Assembly: GCA_003724325.1 (NCBI GenBank)
Contig: RHFD01000030.1
Span: forward strand, 1-33,733
DNA length: 33,733 nt
Source of the DNA: Nitrosopumilus sp. D6
GTDB taxonomy: Archaea > Thermoproteota > Nitrososphaeria > Nitrososphaerales > Nitrosopumilaceae
Direction: 5' to 3'
In this document: in pieces, positions 3,574-32,117 of the stretch
Numbering within the stretch: position 1 is the stretch's first letter
How the letters are laid out: the number at the start of each line of letters is the position of its first letter
Translations under genes and position numbers: made by a program
The notes under the pieces: generated by a model
What the model saw: the letters and a program-made list of their open reading frames with translations, nothing else
What the model was told of the DNA's origin: nothing
Databases searched by the model: none

Positions 3574-5034
3574 TTGCCCTATAAAGTCAGTCATGGAAAG
3601 GCGATCCCGATAACTTATTCGCCCGACGAGGTCTTTTCGAGGATTCAGCACGAAGGTATCAAGTTTATAGATCTGCAGTTTACCGGCCTTACTGGCCACT
3701 TTCATCACACGACCATATCTACTGATACCTTTACCCCCCAGCAGATGCGCGACGGTCTGCCAAAGCTTGACGGCTCGTCAATAGTTGGCTTTACCACTAT
3801 TGATGACTCGGATCTGATCCTCAAGCCGGATCCAAACACGTTTGCAATAATTCCCTGGATGACAGAAAACCGCACTGCCCGGCTCTTGTGTGATATCTAC
3901 TGGGGGGAAGACAGGGGAAGACTCTCAAGGGATCCGAGGGGGATAGCGCAAAAAGCAGAAGAGTACATCAAGACGCAGGGCTTTGACTATAGCACGTGGG
4001 GTCCAGAGGTGGAGTTTTTTGTGTTTGACAAGGTCAACTGGGATGTGCTGACTCCGTACAAGGGGCAGTCGTACTCGATTGAATCAAAAGAGGCTCCATG
4101 GAGCCAGGATGGCAACGGATACCCGATGGGACTGCAGGAGGGATACTATCCGAGCACCCCGTCTGACACACTGACTCCGTACAGAAACGAGTGTGTCAAC
4201 ATACTAAACAGTAATTTTGGAATACTGTGTGATAACCACCACCACGAGGTAGCTACTGCCGGACAGTGCGAGATTGACATAAGGTATGATCATCTCACCA
4301 ATGCGGCAGATGCGGCCCAGTCCTACAAGTATGTAATTAGAAACATTGCAAAAAAATACGGCAAGGTTGCTACCATGATGCCAAAGCCCATAGCAATGGA
4401 CTCGGGGTCGGGGATGCACATCAATGTAAGCTTGTGGAAGGGAAACAAGAACATGTTTTACGAGCCAGCCGACGAGATAGAGCTGAGTCAGACTGCGAGA
4501 TATTTCTGCGGCGGGATAATCAACCACGCAAAGGCGCTCTCGGCAATATGCAATCCCACCACAAACTCGTACCACAGGCTCGTGCCCGGATACGAGGCCC
4601 CCGCATACATTGCGTGGAGTTCGGGGAACCGCTCGGCCATAGTCAGGGTTCCAAAACACCTCAAGGGAAAAGAGTACGCCCACCTCAAGAGGCTCGAATT
4701 CAGGGCTCCTGACCCGTCTTCAAACCCGTATCTTGCCTTTGCCGCAGTTACAGCAGCCGGAATGGACGGTCTCAAGAAAAAGACGGAACCCGGAGAACAG
4801 GTCCGCGACGATATTTTCAAGATGACAAAGTCAGACAGGGCCAAGAGGGGCATCGGCGTCCTGCCAAAGAGTCTAGGCGAGGCGCTCGACGCACTAGAAT
4901 GTGACAGAAAGTTCCTAAACACCATCTATACCAATGACGTGATAGACAAGATCATAGAGCTTGAGAGAAGAGATCAGCGCGAGATATCCATCAGGCCACA
5001 TCCGCACGAGTTTTATCTTTACTTTGATGTCTAA
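3574..5034 (+). CDS. glnA: Glutamine synthetase, type I
   Basis: 486 aa; WGPEVEFFVFD, SGSGMHINVSLW, NRSAIVRVP, RLEFRAPDPSSNPYLAFAA. Apparent TTG start at 3574. Confidence 0.97.
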   Translation: MPYKVSHGKAIPITYSPDEVFSRIQHEGIKFIDLQFTGLTGHFHHTTISTDTFTPQQMRDGLPKLDGSSIVGFTTIDDSDLILKPDPNTFAIIPWMTENRTARLLCDIYWGEDRGRLSRDPRGIAQKAEEYIKTQGFDYSTWGPEVEFFVFDKVNWDVLTPYKGQSYSIESKEAPWSQDGNGYPMGLQEGYYPSTPSDTLTPYRNECVNILNSNFGILCDNHHHEVATAGQCEIDIRYDHLTNAADAAQSYKYVIRNIAKKYGKVATMMPKPIAMDSGSGMHINVSLWKGNKNMFYEPADEIELSQTARYFCGGIINHAKALSAICNPTTNSYHRLVPGYEAPAYIAWSSGNRSAIVRVPKHLKGKEYAHLKRLEFRAPDPSSNPYLAFAAVTAAGMDGLKKKTEPGEQVRDDIFKMTKSDRAKRGIGVLPKSLGEALDALECDRKFLNTIYTNDVIDKIIELERRDQREISIRPHPHEFYLYFDV

Positions 5035-11889: not shown

Positions 11890-12639
11890 CTATTTGTCCC
11901 GGATCGCCCTTGCTATATCCCGGAGTTTTTTGATACTGCCGCCTTTTTCAAGCAGTGTGCCAATTACTAGGGCGTCGGCTCCGGCACGGACCAGACTCTT
12001 TGCAGTCTTTGCCTCCCGGATGCCGCCTCCAACTATCAGAAACCCGTCAAATGTGCGCCTGACAGTCTTGACCATCTCTGGCGTGACAGATGTCTTTGCT
12101 CCAGATCCTGCCTCTAGATACACAAACCTCATGCCCAGAAACTGTGCTGCAAGGGCGTACGCTGCTGCAATCTTTGGCTTTTCAAATGGAATTCCCCGCG
12201 CAGAACCTACAAACCATGCAGACGTCCCCTCGCCTATTACCAGGTATGCGGTGGGCAGCGGCTCGAGGCCGAACTTGAGTACGCTGGGGGCTCCTAGGGC
12301 CTGCGCCTGGGAGATAAAGTAGGGATTCTCCGAGTTCATCAGCGAGCTAAACAGGATCGCGTCTGCATTGGGTACAACCCCGGTCACGTTACCAGGAAAG
12401 AGGATTACGGGAATCTTTGTCTCTTTTTTAATGTCTTTTACCACGCGCGCCATCTCGATCTGATCAGTGGCAGAGGAGCCACCCACGAGTATCGCAGATG
12501 CACCAATTCGCTCCACGTCCCGTGCAAGCTTGCCTGATGTGCCGGGATCAGACACCTCGGAATCAACTAGTACGAATAAGAGTGCCTTTTTCTTCCGCAG
12601 TTCGGACTTTAGGAACGACTCTACCCTGTCTCTAACCAT
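11890..12639 (-). CDS. Geranylgeranylglyceryl phosphate synthase (PcrB-like)
   Basis: 249 aa; LFPGNVTGVVPNADAILFSSLMNS, YLEAGSGA, VGGGIREAKTAKSLVRAGADALVIGTLLE. Confidence 0.92.
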   Translation of the reverse strand: MVRDRVESFLKSELRKKKALLFVLVDSEVSDPGTSGKLARDVERIGASAILVGGSSATDQIEMARVVKDIKKETKIPVILFPGNVTGVVPNADAILFSSLMNSENPYFISQAQALGAPSVLKFGLEPLPTAYLVIGEGTSAWFVGSARGIPFEKPKIAAAYALAAQFLGMRFVYLEAGSGAKTSVTPEMVKTVRRTFDGFLIVGGGIREAKTAKSLVRAGADALVIGTLLEKGGSIKKLRDIARAIRDK

Positions 12640-12704
12640 GAGGTGGGTTTGTAGGTGCCGCTTTAAAGTTTAATTGGAGTACCAACATACAGAATTGTAT
12701 AGCT

Positions 12705-13067
12705 ATGGACGAGTCTGCCGAGCCCAATTTTAACAACATTCTACGGAAAATCATCAAAAAATCGCTGTTTACAGAGCGACAGATTGAAATTATTTTAAAT
12801 CAGAAGGATCTTCTCAACTCGGAGTTTTCCATCACAAAAGGTGCGTACTATAGGCAGGTGGGGCAGTCTAGAGAGAAACTAGTCTCATTCTTCTATACAG
12901 TCGTGCTTTTACGCAGTCTGGGCATACTTTTACCTGATGACATTGATGTGATATCAAAACTCTCCGAGCAGGTTCGTGTGATAAGTGAGAGTGATTTCTT
13001 TCCAGAAAGAGAGGTAGATGTCATTGATGTGATAGACAATCTCGTCCGCCGTGCGTGCAAACTGTGA
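12705..13067 (+). CDS. Conserved hypothetical protein (120 aa)
   Basis: Open ORF with AT-rich upstream region shared divergently with the GGGP synthase gene; no domain recognised. Confidence 0.55.
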   Translation: MDESAEPNFNNILRKIIKKSLFTERQIEIILNQKDLLNSEFSITKGAYYRQVGQSREKLVSFFYTVVLLRSLGILLPDDIDVISKLSEQVRVISESDFFPEREVDVIDVIDNLVRRACKL

Positions 13068-13194
13068 CGAGTGTGTGAGTATGGGCGCCGTGTGCAGGGA
13101 GGTGTGTGTGATAATATGTGTGAGTATGTTCATCCAAAATGTGAAATAATATTGTTCAATCACAATAAATCACAATACATGCGTAAATTTTGTG

Positions 13195-13788
13195 ATGTTA
13201 GTAGAGATCCCGGATCCTGACGTGATTTTGAGTGTGATTCTGGCGTTCCTGGGCGGCTTGGGCGCGTTGTATCTATTCTACAAGGTGCGCCCGCACATCA
13301 GGTCTGGAAGTAAGACATCTACCATGCCTGACGAGCGGCTTGAATACTATGAAAGGCAGTTAATTGATATGAAGATACGTCTGGATGCCATGGAGATTCA
13401 GGGTGTGGAGCAAAAGACTGGTGATTCGGCCACCGAGTTAAAGGAGATTCTTGGTAGGTTGGCAGCAGGCAGGGTGCAGGGAGGCGCATCCGAGGCAGAA
13501 ACGCCCAAGGTTGTGCCTGAAAAGATCGAGCAGGCACCACCCGTTCTGGTAACTAATTCAAGCCCCACAGACTATGTGTTGCATCTAATCACAGACAAAG
13601 CTATGACGTCACGTGATATACAAGTCACACTAGGCAAAAGCAGGGAGCACACATCACGTCTGATGAAGAGATTGTTTGAGGAGGGTTTTGTAGAAAGGAA
13701 CACGGAGACAAAACCATACACTTACTCTATCACTGAGAAAGGCCGGGTGAGGGCAGGTAAACGCCAGACCAACTCGATTGCTGCATAG
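13195..13788 (+). CDS. Membrane-anchored protein with coiled-coil linker and C-terminal winged-HTH
   Basis: N-terminal TM ILSVILAFLGGLGALYLFYKV; predicted coiled coil DERLEYYERQLIDMKIRLDAMEIQ; wHTH MTSRDIQVTLGKSREHTSRLMKRLFEEGFVERNTETKPYTYSITEKG. Track start 13192 is GTG; ATG follows at 13195. Confidence 0.75.
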   Translation: MLVEIPDPDVILSVILAFLGGLGALYLFYKVRPHIRSGSKTSTMPDERLEYYERQLIDMKIRLDAMEIQGVEQKTGDSATELKEILGRLAAGRVQGGASEAETPKVVPEKIEQAPPVLVTNSSPTDYVLHLITDKAMTSRDIQVTLGKSREHTSRLMKRLFEEGFVERNTETKPYTYSITEKGRVRAGKRQTNSIAA

Positions 13789-13919
13789 TGTGTCAGAGGG
13801 ATCGGATCCCGGGGTTCTCGATGTATGTTTTGGGTGATTTCAAGCCAAAATAAGATGATTTTATGATGAATTATTGTAATTCGAAATTATTAAATTCTCT
13901 ATATTATGATTAATAATAG

Positions 13920-14081
13920 ATGTCAGAAGAAGAGATGGGCGTACTAGTCAAGATCACATCTGCAGGCACCATCTCCATCCCAAAACAGTTCAGAAAGTAC
14001 ATGGACATCCAAAAGGGAGAGTACGTAAAGGTGGTTTTGAGGGGAGACCAGTTGATTGTGAGAAAGGTAACCATATCGTAG
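13920..14081 (+). CDS. AbrB/MazE-like SpoVT-AbrB domain protein, 53 aa, not in ORF track
   Basis: ATG 13920 to TAG 14081: MSEEEMGVLVKITSAGTISIPKQFRKYMDIQKGEYVKVVLRGDQLIVRKVTIS; swapped-hairpin AbrB pattern (G.I.IPK.FR...I..GEYV.V...GDQLIV). Confidence 0.8.
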   Translation: MSEEEMGVLVKITSAGTISIPKQFRKYMDIQKGEYVKVVLRGDQLIVRKVTIS

Positions 14082-14082
14082 A

Positions 14083-14472
14083 TTATGGGTGTCTTTGTGA
14101 TATTTTGATCGTTTGATACGTCCATTCCCGACCGGTTCTAGTCCTATTTACCCTGCCTTTTGATGAGAATCGTGATAGATAAGTCGATATCACACTCAGT
14201 TTCACAGGCTCGTTGAACTCGTCTTCAAACTTTTCAAGTATGTTTGTAGAGGTGAATTTGCCCATTGGGAAGAACTTGTCTACTACATGCCATATTTTGG
14301 AGCCCACAGAGTTGGGAGCCTGTACTGTTTGGTCATTCTCCTCGATATTCATCAGGTCCAGCATCTCAAAGATCTTTAACACCTTTTCTCTGGTAATGTT
14401 CCCCTCGAGTTTGAGGTTGTAAGAGCCTCCGCTTTGATCCTGCATGTCTATCCTGATGCGTTTTTTTGCCAT
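14083..14472 (-). CDS. Conserved archaeal protein with predicted C-terminal winged-HTH (129 aa)
   Basis: TSTNILEKFEDEFNEPVKLSVISTYLSRFSSKGRVNRTRTGREWTYQ resembles a wHTH; basic, no TM. Confidence 0.6.
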   Translation of the reverse strand: MAKKRIRIDMQDQSGGSYNLKLEGNITREKVLKIFEMLDLMNIEENDQTVQAPNSVGSKIWHVVDKFFPMGKFTSTNILEKFEDEFNEPVKLSVISTYLSRFSSKGRVNRTRTGREWTYQTIKISQRHP

Positions 14473-14630
14473 TTTGGAGATCTACAAAGTTCTAGATTGA
14501 TAGTTTAACGGATCTAGGGAAGTTTGTTAACTGTGGGAGTTGTTAATGTTGACTGCCTAGCCCACGCCTAGGCCTGTTTTTGTTGTTAACAGATGGGTTC
14601 AACCACCCAACCTTAATTGAGTGGTTTTGT

Positions 14631-14658
14631 GCCTAGAGTGGAAATAAGGGGGTCAAAA
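14631..14658 (+). repeat. ORB-like origin recognition box, copy 1
   Basis: gcctagagtggaaataagggggtcaaaa; resembles the archaeal ORB/mini-ORB (..CAGTGGAAAC-AAGGGGG..). Confidence 0.75.
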
Positions 14659-14692
14659 TGACCATATTCACACTGTTAACATCCAGATTCAC

Positions 14693-14720
14693 GCCTAGAG
14701 TGGAAATAAGGGGGTCAAAA
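14693..14720 (+). repeat. ORB-like origin recognition box, copy 2
   Basis: 28-bp identical copy of 14631-14658, offset 62 bp. Confidence 0.75.
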
Positions 14721-14787
14721 CAGGGTTTTTGGGATGTTTCTTCACATTTGATTAACATTTTGTTAATTTGCAGGCGTGATGGTGAAT

Positions 14788-14818
14788 TGACCCACACACC
14801 TCTCTTTCCACTGTGTCT
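14788..14818 (-). repeat. Degenerate inverted ORB-like element
   Basis: Reverse complement gacacagtggaaagagaggtgtgtgggtcaa shares AGTGGAAA, a G-rich run and GGGTCAA with the two direct ORBs. Confidence 0.5.
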
Positions 14819-14950
14819 TTTTTCATTTTTTTTCTCAGGAAATACCTAAATTAAAAATAATTAATTACAAACTAAACTAGAGTTATTATCAGGTTCTAAA
14901 CACTTCTAATCCATGTATTGGTATGAGAGTAGAAACAATGGTGTGTGGGT

Positions 14951-16153
14951 ATGTCTGACCCAGTAGACCGGATCATCGACTCTGCAAAAGACGGCAAGTC
15001 AATCCTCAAAGACAGGAGCGTCCTTCATTTTACACACATCCCCAACACCATCTTTCATCGGGATGCCGAACAAGAAAAAGTGACCCAGTCCCTGCTCCCA
15101 ATACTAAAACACGCCAAACCCTCAAACCTACTAATCTATGGCAAGCCAGGAACAGGCAAGACCCTGGTGGTCAAAAAAGTAATCTCTAAAATTCAAGAGC
15201 GGGTGGACCAATCAGAGTTTCCAACCAAACTCATATACACAAATGCAAAAAACGAGTCCACCACCACCGGTCTGCTGATAAGCGCCGGCAGGCAGTTGGG
15301 GTTGGATGAAAAAGAACTGCCAATGACAGGTCTGGCAACAGGCGAGGTCTTCAAAAGACTGCTTGACTGCATTGACAAAAACAACCTCAATGTGATATTT
15401 GTAATAGATGAGATCGACTATCTGGCACAACTAATCGCAAGGTCACACAAAGACACAATGTATCAACTCACAAGGGCAAACGAGCGGCTCGGGCGCGGCT
15501 CTTTGGCGCTAGTGGGAATCTCAAATGACCTCAAATTCAAAGAGATGCTTGATGCCAGGGTAATCAGCGGCCTTAGTGAGGAGGAGGTGGTGTTTGCAAA
15601 CTATGATGTGGATCAACTTGCAAAGATACTAGACGAGCGAATCGGAGAGGCCTTTATGCCTGACTCTGTAGAGCCGCAGGCTCTGAGTTTGTGTGCTGCC
15701 ATGGCAGCCAAGATGCACGGTGATGCCAGAAGGGCAATAGATTTGATCCGTGTGGCAGGCGAGATCGCAGAGAGAGAGCAGGCAGACAAGGTTACTGCCA
15801 GACACGTCCGGGACGCGTCCCAAAAAATAGAAGAAAACAAGGAGGAGACTGCGCTAAAGTCCTATCCACTACATGAAAAGCTGGTAATTCTGGCAGTGAT
15901 GAGGGCAGGAGGCTCCTCGACTGGCGAGATCTATACCTCGTACAAAAACCTCTGCAAGGCGACTGCCCAGGATCCACTCTCCCAGAGACGAGTTACCCAG
16001 ATGCTCAACGAGGTGGAAGTCTCTGGACTGATTGACGGGAGAATCGTCCATCAGGGAATGCATGGCAGGACAAAAAAATACAAACTTACGATTCCCACAG
16101 AGACAGTCAAGCGGGCATTCAAAGACGACCTGTCATTGGAGGATGTTATCTGA
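14951..16153 (+). CDS. cdc6: Orc1/Cdc6 replication initiator (AAA+ with C-terminal wHTH)
   Basis: NLLIYGKPGTGKT (Walker A), VIFVIDEIDYL (Walker B), GDARRAIDLIRVAGEIAE sensor 2, C-terminal WH region. Track start 14945 is GTG; ATG at 14951. Confidence 0.95.
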   Translation: MSDPVDRIIDSAKDGKSILKDRSVLHFTHIPNTIFHRDAEQEKVTQSLLPILKHAKPSNLLIYGKPGTGKTLVVKKVISKIQERVDQSEFPTKLIYTNAKNESTTTGLLISAGRQLGLDEKELPMTGLATGEVFKRLLDCIDKNNLNVIFVIDEIDYLAQLIARSHKDTMYQLTRANERLGRGSLALVGISNDLKFKEMLDARVISGLSEEEVVFANYDVDQLAKILDERIGEAFMPDSVEPQALSLCAAMAAKMHGDARRAIDLIRVAGEIAEREQADKVTARHVRDASQKIEENKEETALKSYPLHEKLVILAVMRAGGSSTGEIYTSYKNLCKATAQDPLSQRRVTQMLNEVEVSGLIDGRIVHQGMHGRTKKYKLTIPTETVKRAFKDDLSLEDVI

Positions 16154-28375: not shown

Positions 28376-28452
28376 CGCCGGATCCGTGCCTGCCGGCAGA
28401 GCCAAAACTTGTTGATTCATAAATACCAACTTGGGCAGAGTTGAGAGTCATA

Positions 28453-29358
28453 ATGGTAAGTAATACAAAAGAGATGTGTCCCAGATGCGCACGCGGCAAG
28501 CTGCTAACTGATAATGAATCCGGTGAGATGTTCTGCTCAAAGTGCGGGTTTGTAATTACCGAGAAACTGCAAGAGGCAGGCCCCGAATGGAGGTCTTTCT
28601 CCCAGGACGAGCACGGGGACAGGGCAAGGGCAGGGGCGCCTACCTCGCTGACAATGCATGATATGGGTCTTGCAACAATAATCAACCCGATAAACAAGGA
28701 TGCCTCCGGCAGGCCCCTTACATCCACCATGAAGAGCACCATTGAGAGGCTCAGGACGTGGGACTCGAGAAGCCAGGTGCACGAGCCAGTTGACAGGAAC
28801 TTTAGGCAGGCATTTAGCGAGTTAAACAGGCTAAAGGACAAGCTGGCCATATCTGACGCTGTGATAGAAAAGGCAGCCTACCTGTACCGCAAGGCGCTCG
28901 ACAAGGGACTGGTCCGCGGCCGCTCCATCTCTGCGCTCATGGCATCTGCATTGTATGCGGCATGCCGGGACACAGAGACGCCAAGAAATCTCAAGGATAT
29001 AGAGCAGGCAGCAAACATTAAGAGAAAAGACATTGCAAGGTGCTATCGCCTGCTGGTAAAGGAGCTTGATCTCAGAATGCCGGTAATTGACTCGATTCAG
29101 TGCATTGCCCGGATTGCCAGCAGAATCGGCGTTGCAGAAAAGACAAAGAGGCACGCAGTAAAGGTGCTAAAGCAGGCGCAAGAAAAAGAGGCGTCTGCAG
29201 GCAAGGATCCGATGGGGCTTGCAGCAGCTGCGCTATACCTTGCATGTGTAAAGCATGACGAGGACAAGACGCAGCGCGACATTGCAGATGCGGCAAACGT
29301 GACTGAAGTCACGATAAGAAACAGGTACAAGGGACTAAAAGACTCGCTTGATATCTAG
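28453..29358 (+). CDS. tfb: Transcription initiation factor IIB (TFB)
   Basis: CPRCARGKLLTDNESGEMFCSKCGFVI zinc ribbon, B-reader GPEWRSF, two cyclin folds. Confidence 0.96.
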   Translation: MVSNTKEMCPRCARGKLLTDNESGEMFCSKCGFVITEKLQEAGPEWRSFSQDEHGDRARAGAPTSLTMHDMGLATIINPINKDASGRPLTSTMKSTIERLRTWDSRSQVHEPVDRNFRQAFSELNRLKDKLAISDAVIEKAAYLYRKALDKGLVRGRSISALMASALYAACRDTETPRNLKDIEQAANIKRKDIARCYRLLVKELDLRMPVIDSIQCIARIASRIGVAEKTKRHAVKVLKQAQEKEASAGKDPMGLAAAALYLACVKHDEDKTQRDIADAANVTEVTIRNRYKGLKDSLDI

Positions 29359-29387: not shown

Positions 29388-30011
29388 TCATGTTCGAAAC
29401 GTATCTTCTCCTCTCAATTCAATTTTACCATGATGTGGATCAACTATTGTTGAAAATTCTTTTTCATCACTAATAGTTCTCATCACGGCAAATACTCTTA
29501 TTTTTGTATTGGGAAATGCCTCGGTAATTCTGCTTGCAGCGCCTAGAATTGTAGCTCCGCGGGTTACAACATCATCTACCAAGACAATCTCTTTGGGCTC
29601 AACCAAGGTTTCCACCCCCATTGATTCGTAATGCTCAATTGCCTTTGGTCTATTTTCTGGCTTGCTTGTAGATGATTTTGGTACTGCTTTAATACGTTTT
29701 AAACATTCAACGGATTCTCCTAGTCCAATTTTTGACAGCGCTGTGGTGATCCGTCTAGTTACTGAAAATTGTGATTCTGAACTTCTTGGTAGAGGAATCA
29801 AAACTACATTTTGAGTGAAATAATCCAAAAATTTTGATTCTTTAACTAGGCGAGCAATCGATTCTGACATTAACATACCATTTTCTAATCTATTATCTTT
29901 TTTAAGATCATACATTGTTGTCTTGGATTCTTTACCATGTTTAGAACAAGGGCGTGGCGTGTATGCTAAAATTGATTCATACTCAATACTTGATAATAAT
30001 CCCATACTCAA
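29388..30011 (-). CDS. ComF-like phosphoribosyltransferase-family protein
   Basis: 207 aa; PRPP-binding motif IVLVDDVVTRGATILGAA; VVLIPLPRSSESQF...RRITTALSKIG resembles the ComF family. Confidence 0.8.
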   Translation of the reverse strand: MSMGLLSSIEYESILAYTPRPCSKHGKESKTTMYDLKKDNRLENGMLMSESIARLVKESKFLDYFTQNVVLIPLPRSSESQFSVTRRITTALSKIGLGESVECLKRIKAVPKSSTSKPENRPKAIEHYESMGVETLVEPKEIVLVDDVVTRGATILGAASRITEAFPNTKIRVFAVMRTISDEKEFSTIVDPHHGKIELRGEDTFRT

Positions 30012-30684
30012 TAATTAAACAGTTTGGGCATTTTAATGTTTGATGGTAAATGTTCCAAGATATCCTCGTATTGATCAAGGATCATTGCTCCATATTTTTG
30101 CATCTCTGCCGGCCATTCTAGATTAGAATCCTCTACAACTGATTTACAGATAAACAGCGGCTTGCCCAATCTTAATGTCTCTTTCCCTTGACTCAAAGAT
30201 CCCCCTTTATCCTTTGCCTGAACAATAACTGACGCATCTGCGATCAATGCCATTGTTCTATTTCGCAATACAAAATTTCTTGGCAATGTGTTGGAACCGA
30301 TCGGATATTGGGAGACGACCAAGTGCTCTCTCATTATTTTCTCTTGCAACTCAGAATTCTCTTTTGGATACGTCTTGTCTAGTGGTGTTCCAATTACTGC
30401 GACAGTCTTGCCGCCATTTTCTATGGCAGTTTGGTGAGCCATGGTGTCAATCCCTTTACCAACATCTCTGTAATCGCCCTAGCTTCTGCAAGCCCCTCAT
30501 CAGTTGCATCTCTTGAACCAACAACTGCAACTTTGGGAAGTGGTAGCGGCGTCTCCATCGAGCCGGCATAATATGCTGTTTTTGGGGCATACTTTTCCTC
30601 TACGTCGTTTAACTGACGTCCTAGTAGCCCTTCCAGATTGGTTGCCTGATATTTAACCTCGTCAGCCATATATTCTCGCCTCAT
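30008..30684 (-). pseudogene. DprA/Smf-like Rossmann protein split into two ORFs by a frameshift/deletion
   Basis: ORF 30421..30684 encodes PKVAVVGSRDATDEGLAEARAITEMLVKG; ORF 30008..30442 continues (I)DTMAHQTAIENGGKTVAVIGTPLDKTYPKENSELQEKI...LPRNFVLRNRTMALIADASVIVQAKDKGGSL. The usual 'xVVSGLAxGID' segment is missing at the junction. Confidence 0.75.
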
Positions 30685-30749: not shown

Positions 30750-32117
30750 CTACCCCTCAAAATCTCCCCGTGTAGGCTTTACAAACCCGCCTTCGACTGA
30801 TTCAGGCGGCGGTATCTTTTTTGATTTTCCAAGGCCTATGGTAGTAATGATTACAGAGGAGAGTATGATAAAAAAGATGAGCTGTGGATAGGCTCCGGCA
30901 TTTGGCAGTCCCAGTGTGATGGGATAGGTGGCAAGGACCGCTGCTGCCAGACCCCTTGGAATCATTGTGTTTGTCACGGCCTTGTCAAGCTTGGAGAATC
31001 TACTTGTCAATATTGCCTTGGCTGCCATTCGTCTTCCCACGTACACTGCTATCGTAATTAAAATTCCAAATATCATGTACTCGCTCTGTCCAAAGCTTGC
31101 AAGCAGTCCCACAAACACGAAAAAGAACGATCTTACAAGAAACGTAAGCTGATTATGAGTCGGATCGTCAATCTCTATCTTTGGCATCTTGAATCTTAAC
31201 ACCTTTGCAAGATGAGTCTTGTTTCCAAGCATCAGTCCAAATACCAGCGCAGTCAGGGCGCCCGACTCGCCAAACGAGTTTGCCAGGAAGAACAGCACAA
31301 AGAGAATTCCAAGCGTGAGCATGTATGCGTGCTGGGCGTTGCCAAGCTTTGTGCTAATGTACATCCAGGGAATGCCTACTCCGAACCCGAGCACCAGCCC
31401 CACCATTACTGCCCTTCCAAGCGTGGCCTGTAGCGTCTCGAGATCAAACTGGCCTGCAAGCACGGCCTCGAAGAGTATGAACGCAACTATCGTTGCTAGA
31501 ATGTCTGTAAGTGCTGATTCAAAGCTGAGCATGGACTTTGTCTCCTCTGATATCTTGATGTTTCTGACCAAGCCAAAGACGATTGCAGAGCTGCTCCCCC
31601 CCACTATCGAGCCAAGCAGGACGCTTTCAAGCCACGACCATCCGAGCGCATAGTGGGCGCCTACAGCAATCATTGCGACAGATATGATAAACCCGACTAT
31701 GGCCAGGGTCACCGAGAAATGAGCAGTCTTTACCACATGCTTGATGTCAAGGTTCAGACCTCCATCAAACATGATTATGATTAGCGCAAGTGAGGCAAAG
31801 TACGGCACCACTTGTATTACTGCCTCTGGCTGGATCACACCAAACAGTGGCCCGATTATTACCCCGAGTACCATCAGAAACGCCACGTCTGGAATGCCTG
31901 TCTTTTTAAAAAATGCCTCTCCTGCGACCCCCAGAAACACCACCACCCCTGCTGCAAGCAGCACCACGTGGGCGGGGGCAATTAAACCATCAGAGGATGC
32001 CAGCTTGTCTATTGACATCTGCAGCTCTGTCATCTTGTCGAGGATCTGCCCCAGACTGGGCAGGCCGTCTATCTGTCCTGCAAACACGTTTAGGATTGAG
32101 AGTACAATACCGTCCAA
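30750..32117 (-). CDS. Na+/H+ (cation:proton) antiporter, CPA family
   Basis: 455 aa; many TM segments, LMVLGVIIGPLFGVIQPE, IIMFDGGLNLDIK, SSSAIVFGLVRN, ESALTDILA. Confidence 0.88.
   Translation of the reverse strand: MDGIVLSILNVFAGQIDGLPSLGQILDKMTELQMSIDKLASSDGLIAPAHVVLLAAGVVVFLGVAGEAFFKKTGIPDVAFLMVLGVIIGPLFGVIQPEAVIQVVPYFASLALIIIMFDGGLNLDIKHVVKTAHFSVTLAIVGFIISVAMIAVGAHYALGWSWLESVLLGSIVGGSSSAIVFGLVRNIKISEETKSMLSFESALTDILATIVAFILFEAVLAGQFDLETLQATLGRAVMVGLVLGFGVGIPWMYISTKLGNAQHAYMLTLGILFVLFFLANSFGESGALTALVFGLMLGNKTHLAKVLRFKMPKIEIDDPTHNQLTFLVRSFFFVFVGLLASFGQSEYMIFGILITIAVYVGRRMAAKAILTSRFSKLDKAVTNTMIPRGLAAAVLATYPITLGLPNAGAYPQLIFFIILSSVIITTIGLGKSKKIPPPESVEGGFVKPTRGDFEG

Follow-up and report, generated by a model that had tools for sequence, protein, structure and literature searches.

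A locus in Nitrosopumilus sp. D6 that was previously read as an intact pair of DprA-like and ComF-like genes is almost certainly, by descent, a ShosTA system, in which a DprA-like antitoxin (ShosA) is followed by a phosphoribosyltransferase (PRTase) toxin, ShosT. As assembled, and judging from its reading frames, the locus is not a complete ShosTA system. We consider it probable that this copy was acquired between an antiporter gene and tfb and that it is now losing its function. The analysis was centred on a stretch of 33,733 nucleotides (hereafter the window) and was extended to related loci across archaea and bacteria.

Organisation of the locus and its assignment to ShosTA

Within the window, the locus and its two flanking genes comprise the following features:

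29388 to 30005, minus strand: ShosT-like phosphoribosyltransferase (toxin), 205 aa from the ATG at 30005, with the PRPP loop VLVDDVVTRGAT and an open reading frame
30008 to 30442, minus strand: ShosA/DprA-like antitoxin, C-terminal fragment, 144 aa from an internal ATG, with homology extending to 30460
30421 to 30684, minus strand: ShosA/DprA-like antitoxin, N-terminal fragment, in a different frame, 87 aa as called by the tool, with homology from near the ATG at 30669
30445 to 30460, minus strand: point at which a 34-bp deletion with frameshift is inferred from codon comparison and protein alignment
30750 to 32117, minus strand: core Na+/H+ antiporter (Pfam Na_H_Exchanger, 2.8e-37), flanking gene, context only
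28441 to 29358, plus strand: TFB transcription factor, tfb (Pfam TFIIB, 5e-41), flanking gene, context only

The minus strand from 30684 to 29388 thus holds three open reading frames rather than two genes. The earlier note had described a DprA-like gene and a PRTase gene here, and both coding sequences are indeed found between 29388 and 30684, together with the DprA/Smf and ComF-like PRPP motifs that it quoted; the DprA-like gene, which it took to be part of an intact pair, is broken, with the motif VAVVGSRDATDEGL in one open reading frame and GGKTVAVIGTPLDKTYPKEN in the other (30684-30421 and 30442-30008, which overlap and lie in different frames). The 4-bp overlap that was reported between the two genes holds only if the TTG at 30011 is taken as the start of the toxin, giving a protein of 207 aa, while the start codons of relatives align with the ATG at 30005, 2 bp past the DprA stop codon. 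As in ShosTA, the gene for the DprA-family antitoxin lies directly upstream of the toxin gene on the same strand.

A comparison with PADLOC models, which had been proposed as a check, gave matches for both proteins: the ShosT model matched the toxin, with its PRPP-binding loop, at 2e-20, and the ShosA model matched the C-terminal fragment at 1.7e-48 and the N-terminal fragment at 2e-9. The Pfam family PF02481 (DNA_processg_A) was matched by the C-terminal piece at 3.8e-30 (family positions 88-210) and by the N-terminal piece at 4.5e-5 (positions 25-72), and the match of the toxin to Pribosyltran was weak (8e-6, just below the cut-off). The C-terminal ShosA fragment shares 66-70% identity with the ShosA of the nearest congeners. 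An AlphaFold2 model of the window ShosT has a pLDDT of 94 and a predicted PRTase fold, and a Foldseek search with this model ranked Helicobacter pylori ComF highest, followed by a structure of ShosT with phosphate (8zvd).

These matches also bear on the idea that the two genes form a DprA/ComF pair for DNA uptake, since the window proteins share folds and motifs with competence DprA and ComF, the PF02481 profile matches, and the best fold matches are H. pylori ComF for the PRTase and Streptococcus pneumoniae DprA for an intact ShosA. The window pair differs, however, in being adjacent, accessory and missing from most congeners: a DprA-like gene is found in only 12 of 96 congeneric genomes, which is not the distribution of a housekeeping gene, and the gene order, the PADLOC assignment and the phylogeny of the pair all fit ShosTA. 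A role in competence was therefore rejected on distribution and gene order, and we regard it as exceedingly improbable.

Next to no credence is due to a second reassignment, in which the PRTase would be an effector of PsyrTA or of a type III-A retron. The PsyrTA (RqlHI) system also combines a DprA-like antitoxin with a PRTase-containing toxin, and the window proteins gave weaker PADLOC matches to PsyrA (4e-10), PsyrT (4e-4) and PRTase_III-A (1.5e-5). The toxin of PsyrTA/RqlHI, however, also includes a RecQ-like helicase part, whereas the window toxin is a PRTase of 205 aa alone, matching the 689-position PsyrT model only at its C-terminal end (560-687). Since the models for ShosT and ShosA match far more strongly, the toxin has the wrong architecture, and the adjacent genes are an antiporter gene and tfb, both PsyrTA and the retron effectors were set aside.

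The E. coli ShosTA system, for which structures are available (8zva, 9vzo, 8zvc, 8zvd), has the same arrangement of ShosA followed immediately by the PRTase ShosT on one strand, and is likewise AT-rich and patchily distributed. It differs in that the window pair has an archaeal host and a broken antitoxin. Against the solved ShosA chains, the ShosA of a close relative gave matches of 8e-18 to 9e-18, although these chains are longer (318-331 aa, against about 230 aa for the ShosA of the window's relatives), and the fold of the window ShosT matches the ShosT structures at 1e-4. Since ShosTA has already been described, with solved structures, the pair is no new kind of module. The suggestion of a defence-like module, as opposed to competence or nucleotide salvage, was thus right in kind, given the PADLOC matches and the patchy, AT-rich and inserted character of the locus, but the system was already known and this copy of it is broken. 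ShosTA in archaea is itself on record from scans for defence systems, being listed among those of Asgard archaea (PMC11291487); the window copy differs in belonging to the Nitrosopumilaceae and in having its insertion site and state of decay worked out.

Gene order and phylogeny of ShosTA relatives

ShosT was searched for in one genome per species across 85,462 species, and ShosA was then sought beside each match. In most archaeal ShosT loci, and in many bacterial ones, ShosA was found immediately upstream of ShosT, mostly with no more than some tens of bases between the two. This order was seen in Nitrosopumilaceae, Nitrososphaeraceae, Bathyarchaeota, Thermoplasmata and DPANN among archaea, and in Acidobacteria, Planctomycetes, Myxococci and Gemmatimonadetes among bacteria, a neighbourhood search for DprA and PRTase pairs having been suggested earlier. 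The pair is also present on two viral contigs (L106 and L107).

In the trees, the window ShosT groups with Nitrosopumilaceae-type sequences in a clade of seven (100/99), and the C-terminal ShosA fragment falls in a matching clade of eleven such rows (100/99). Transfer from bacteria was rejected, since both proteins fall inside Nitrosopumilaceae-type clades. One row in these trees comes from a Nitrosopumilaceae-type ShosTA pair on a 2.6-kb contig (L030, JABAAK010000092.1) that is binned with Candidatus Paceibacter and is probably mis-binned.

In Gammaproteobacteria, we also noted ShosT-like PRTases with no ShosA neighbour (L049 4001-4630, L054 ~4001-4624, L055 ~3861-4493 and L067 ~3860-4477). 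When these loci were read by eye, the PRTase gene was seen to follow directly after a gene for a MobA/MobL relaxase-like protein, with a TraD/VirD4-like ATPase upstream. The PRTase possibly belongs to a mobilisable element and has a different antitoxin.

Insertion between the antiporter and tfb

The ShosT gene has a GC content of 0.363 and a GC3 of 0.23, and the C-terminal part of ShosA has a GC content of 0.405, as compared to 0.47-0.53 (GC3 0.55-0.60) for the flanking genes, which bears out the earlier remark that the pair is poorer in GC than tfb and the antiporter gene. By profile search, ShosA is present in about an eighth of the congeneric genomes (the 12 of 96 given above) and the antiporter in 82 of the 96. 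In seven congeners (L132-L138), the stop codons of the antiporter gene and tfb face each other across ~95-250 bp with nothing between them, and it is this junction, empty in those seven, that the window pair occupies. On sequence grounds, the pair is a small insertion whose source lies in the ShosTA clade of the Nitrosopumilaceae. The proposal of a horizontally acquired stand-alone module therefore stands as regards its patchy, AT-rich and inserted nature, with a phylogeny that fits transfer within the Nitrosopumilaceae and not from bacteria.

The same junction in another congener (G021, L121 1513-2145) carries a ShosA without a toxin, at 71% GC, which belongs to a different clade (98/83). An ancestral insertion shared with this genome was accordingly rejected, and the site has probably been used at least twice; the antiporter-tfb junction may be a recurrent insertion site. 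The C-terminal tail of the antiporter (30750-30790), which ends near the pair, is shorter than in several congeners that have a repeated GGFVKP-type tail.

A defence island was considered and rejected: of the larger open reading frames in the window, the ten compared with Pfam are mostly core genes, and PADLOC found nothing convincing among ten open reading frames. A second stretch of low GC content (0.40-0.41 in three of four 600-bp steps) lies at 12601-15000, between a PcrB-like gene and Orc1/Cdc6, and contains an open reading frame for a winged-helix protein at 13192-13788.

A probable deletion in the ShosA core

In relatives, ShosA is a single frame of about 230 aa, while that of the window is split over two frames and was recovered by profile search as two separate pieces, covering positions 1-72 (30454-30669) and 82-229 of a 230-position model. 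In the protein alignment, the residues LV are joined straight to KGID in the window, where relatives have ~11 extra residues ending in VSGLA, and codon comparison with five relatives (L004-L007 and L009) revealed that 34 bases are absent beside a short AAAG-type repeat. The residues lost include V78, S79, G80, L81 and A82, which are invariant in 25 ShosA sequences from archaea and bacteria, and a model of ShosA places strand E76-79 of the predicted Rossmann core within the deletion as well. Because the missing stretch comprises both an invariant motif and a core strand, reading through the frameshift would not restore ShosA, and these comparisons suggest that its core has been destroyed by the 34-bp deletion and the accompanying frameshift. 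A profile search of the same genome found no second ShosA or ShosT.

The main alternative, which we consider unlikely, is that the break is an artefact of assembly or of population variation, in which case an intact and working ShosTA pair would lie behind the 34 bp missing from this metagenome contig. The assembly is in 106 contigs and 85% complete, conserved ShosA sequence is kept in both halves around the junction, the toxin is open as it would be in a working pair, and antitoxin-first breaks are rare (2 of 14 broken pairs). In the nearest relative (G077, 86-88% DNA identity), the assembly breaks at exactly this place, with a contig end on either side of the junction. However, the large genes for DP2 (1118 aa), CDC48 (712 aa) and the thermosome (572 aa) are read through uninterrupted on the same contig, which argues against generally poor sequence around the locus, and the clean loss of 34 bp at a short repeat resembles a mutation rather than a base-calling error.

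State of the toxin

The frame of the window ShosT is uninterrupted for 205 codons. Of the 32 positions that at least 85% of 48 relatives have in common, the protein retains 30, and its PRPP loop VLVDDVVTRGAT is intact, with D144, D145, T148, R149 and G150 invariant in 23 sequences. Judging from the open frame, this loop and the confidently predicted fold, the toxin is not visibly dead. An active toxin without its antitoxin should be lethal, so that a decaying locus requires a toxin that is silenced or weakened; the open frame therefore implies either that the break in ShosA is recent or that the toxin is already silent or weakened. The only hint of weakening in the sequence is the replacement of a tryptophan found in 92% of relatives, together with short deletions that leave the segment a few residues shorter. 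Faster evolution of the window toxin was considered and rejected, its end branch (0.55) being not out of line with the sister paths.

It is quite improbable, in our estimate, that the window retains ShosT as an intact PRTase with no working ShosA. Were this so, archaeal ShosT would be harmless until some trigger other than the loss of ShosA, or would have been reused for another task. The reading of a solitary toxin, in which an intact ShosT is used without ShosA, for example as a metabolic or regulatory PRTase, has a slim chance of being correct. Its open frame and 30 of 32 conserved positions would fit such a use, as would a second genome (G266) with a broken ShosA beside an intact ShosT and the gammaproteobacterial PRTases that lack a ShosA neighbour, but the antitoxin is broken in only 2 of the 26 fetched copies with an intact toxin, and there is no sign of a new gene context, the neighbours in the window being core genes.

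Decay of ShosTA pairs across the order

We searched 301 genomes of the order with profiles for ShosT and ShosA, and scored the frame integrity of 40 archaeal loci by one rule. Intact pairs were found at 23 of the 40. At 12 loci the toxin was broken and the antitoxin intact (11 loci plus G328a, in which the toxin is truncated away from a contig end), while the reverse was found at 2, namely the window and G266 (L180, G266:C372:3150-4950). In one further case (G103) both genes were damaged, and the remaining 2 loci were cut by contig ends. Taking equal loss as the expectation, on the basis that the ShosT and ShosA genes are similar in length, the difference of 12 versus 2 has a one-sided binomial probability of 0.0065, a value that is indicative only, as the loci share ancestry and most of them were taken from metagenome assemblies.

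That toxins are lost first while antitoxins survive is the pattern to be expected were ShosT harmful in the absence of ShosA. The asymmetry fits toxin-antitoxin logic and leaves the window as an exception, for which recent decay, silencing of the toxin or a variant in the assembly would account.

Mechanism and implications

In E. coli, a DprA and PRTase pair protects against T7 and lambda (PMC9122126). According to a review (PMC12593503, citing Pu et al. 2025), ShosT is reported to be a phosphoribosyltransferase and pyrophosphatase that upsets purine metabolism and ShosA binds DNA; the same review names a T7 protein as a trigger of ShosTA. Carried over by homology, this mechanism suggests how the intact archaeal pairs might function: ShosA would keep ShosT in check and react to replication intermediates or abnormal DNA, and the PRTase, once released, would use PRPP to perturb nucleotide metabolism, bringing the infected cell to a halt. 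In the genome studied here, the 34-bp deletion and frameshift would have destroyed the ShosA core, leaving, as read, no regulated pair, with a toxin that may have been silenced.

By itself, the single locus in the window changes little. ShosTA, which has been studied in E. coli, can now be placed in ammonia-oxidising archaea, where its insertion site is clear and its decay can be seen. In addition, the census, with the toxin broken at 12 and the antitoxin at 2 of the 40 loci, provides comparative evidence of toxin-antitoxin behaviour in archaea, and names the pairs that are intact.
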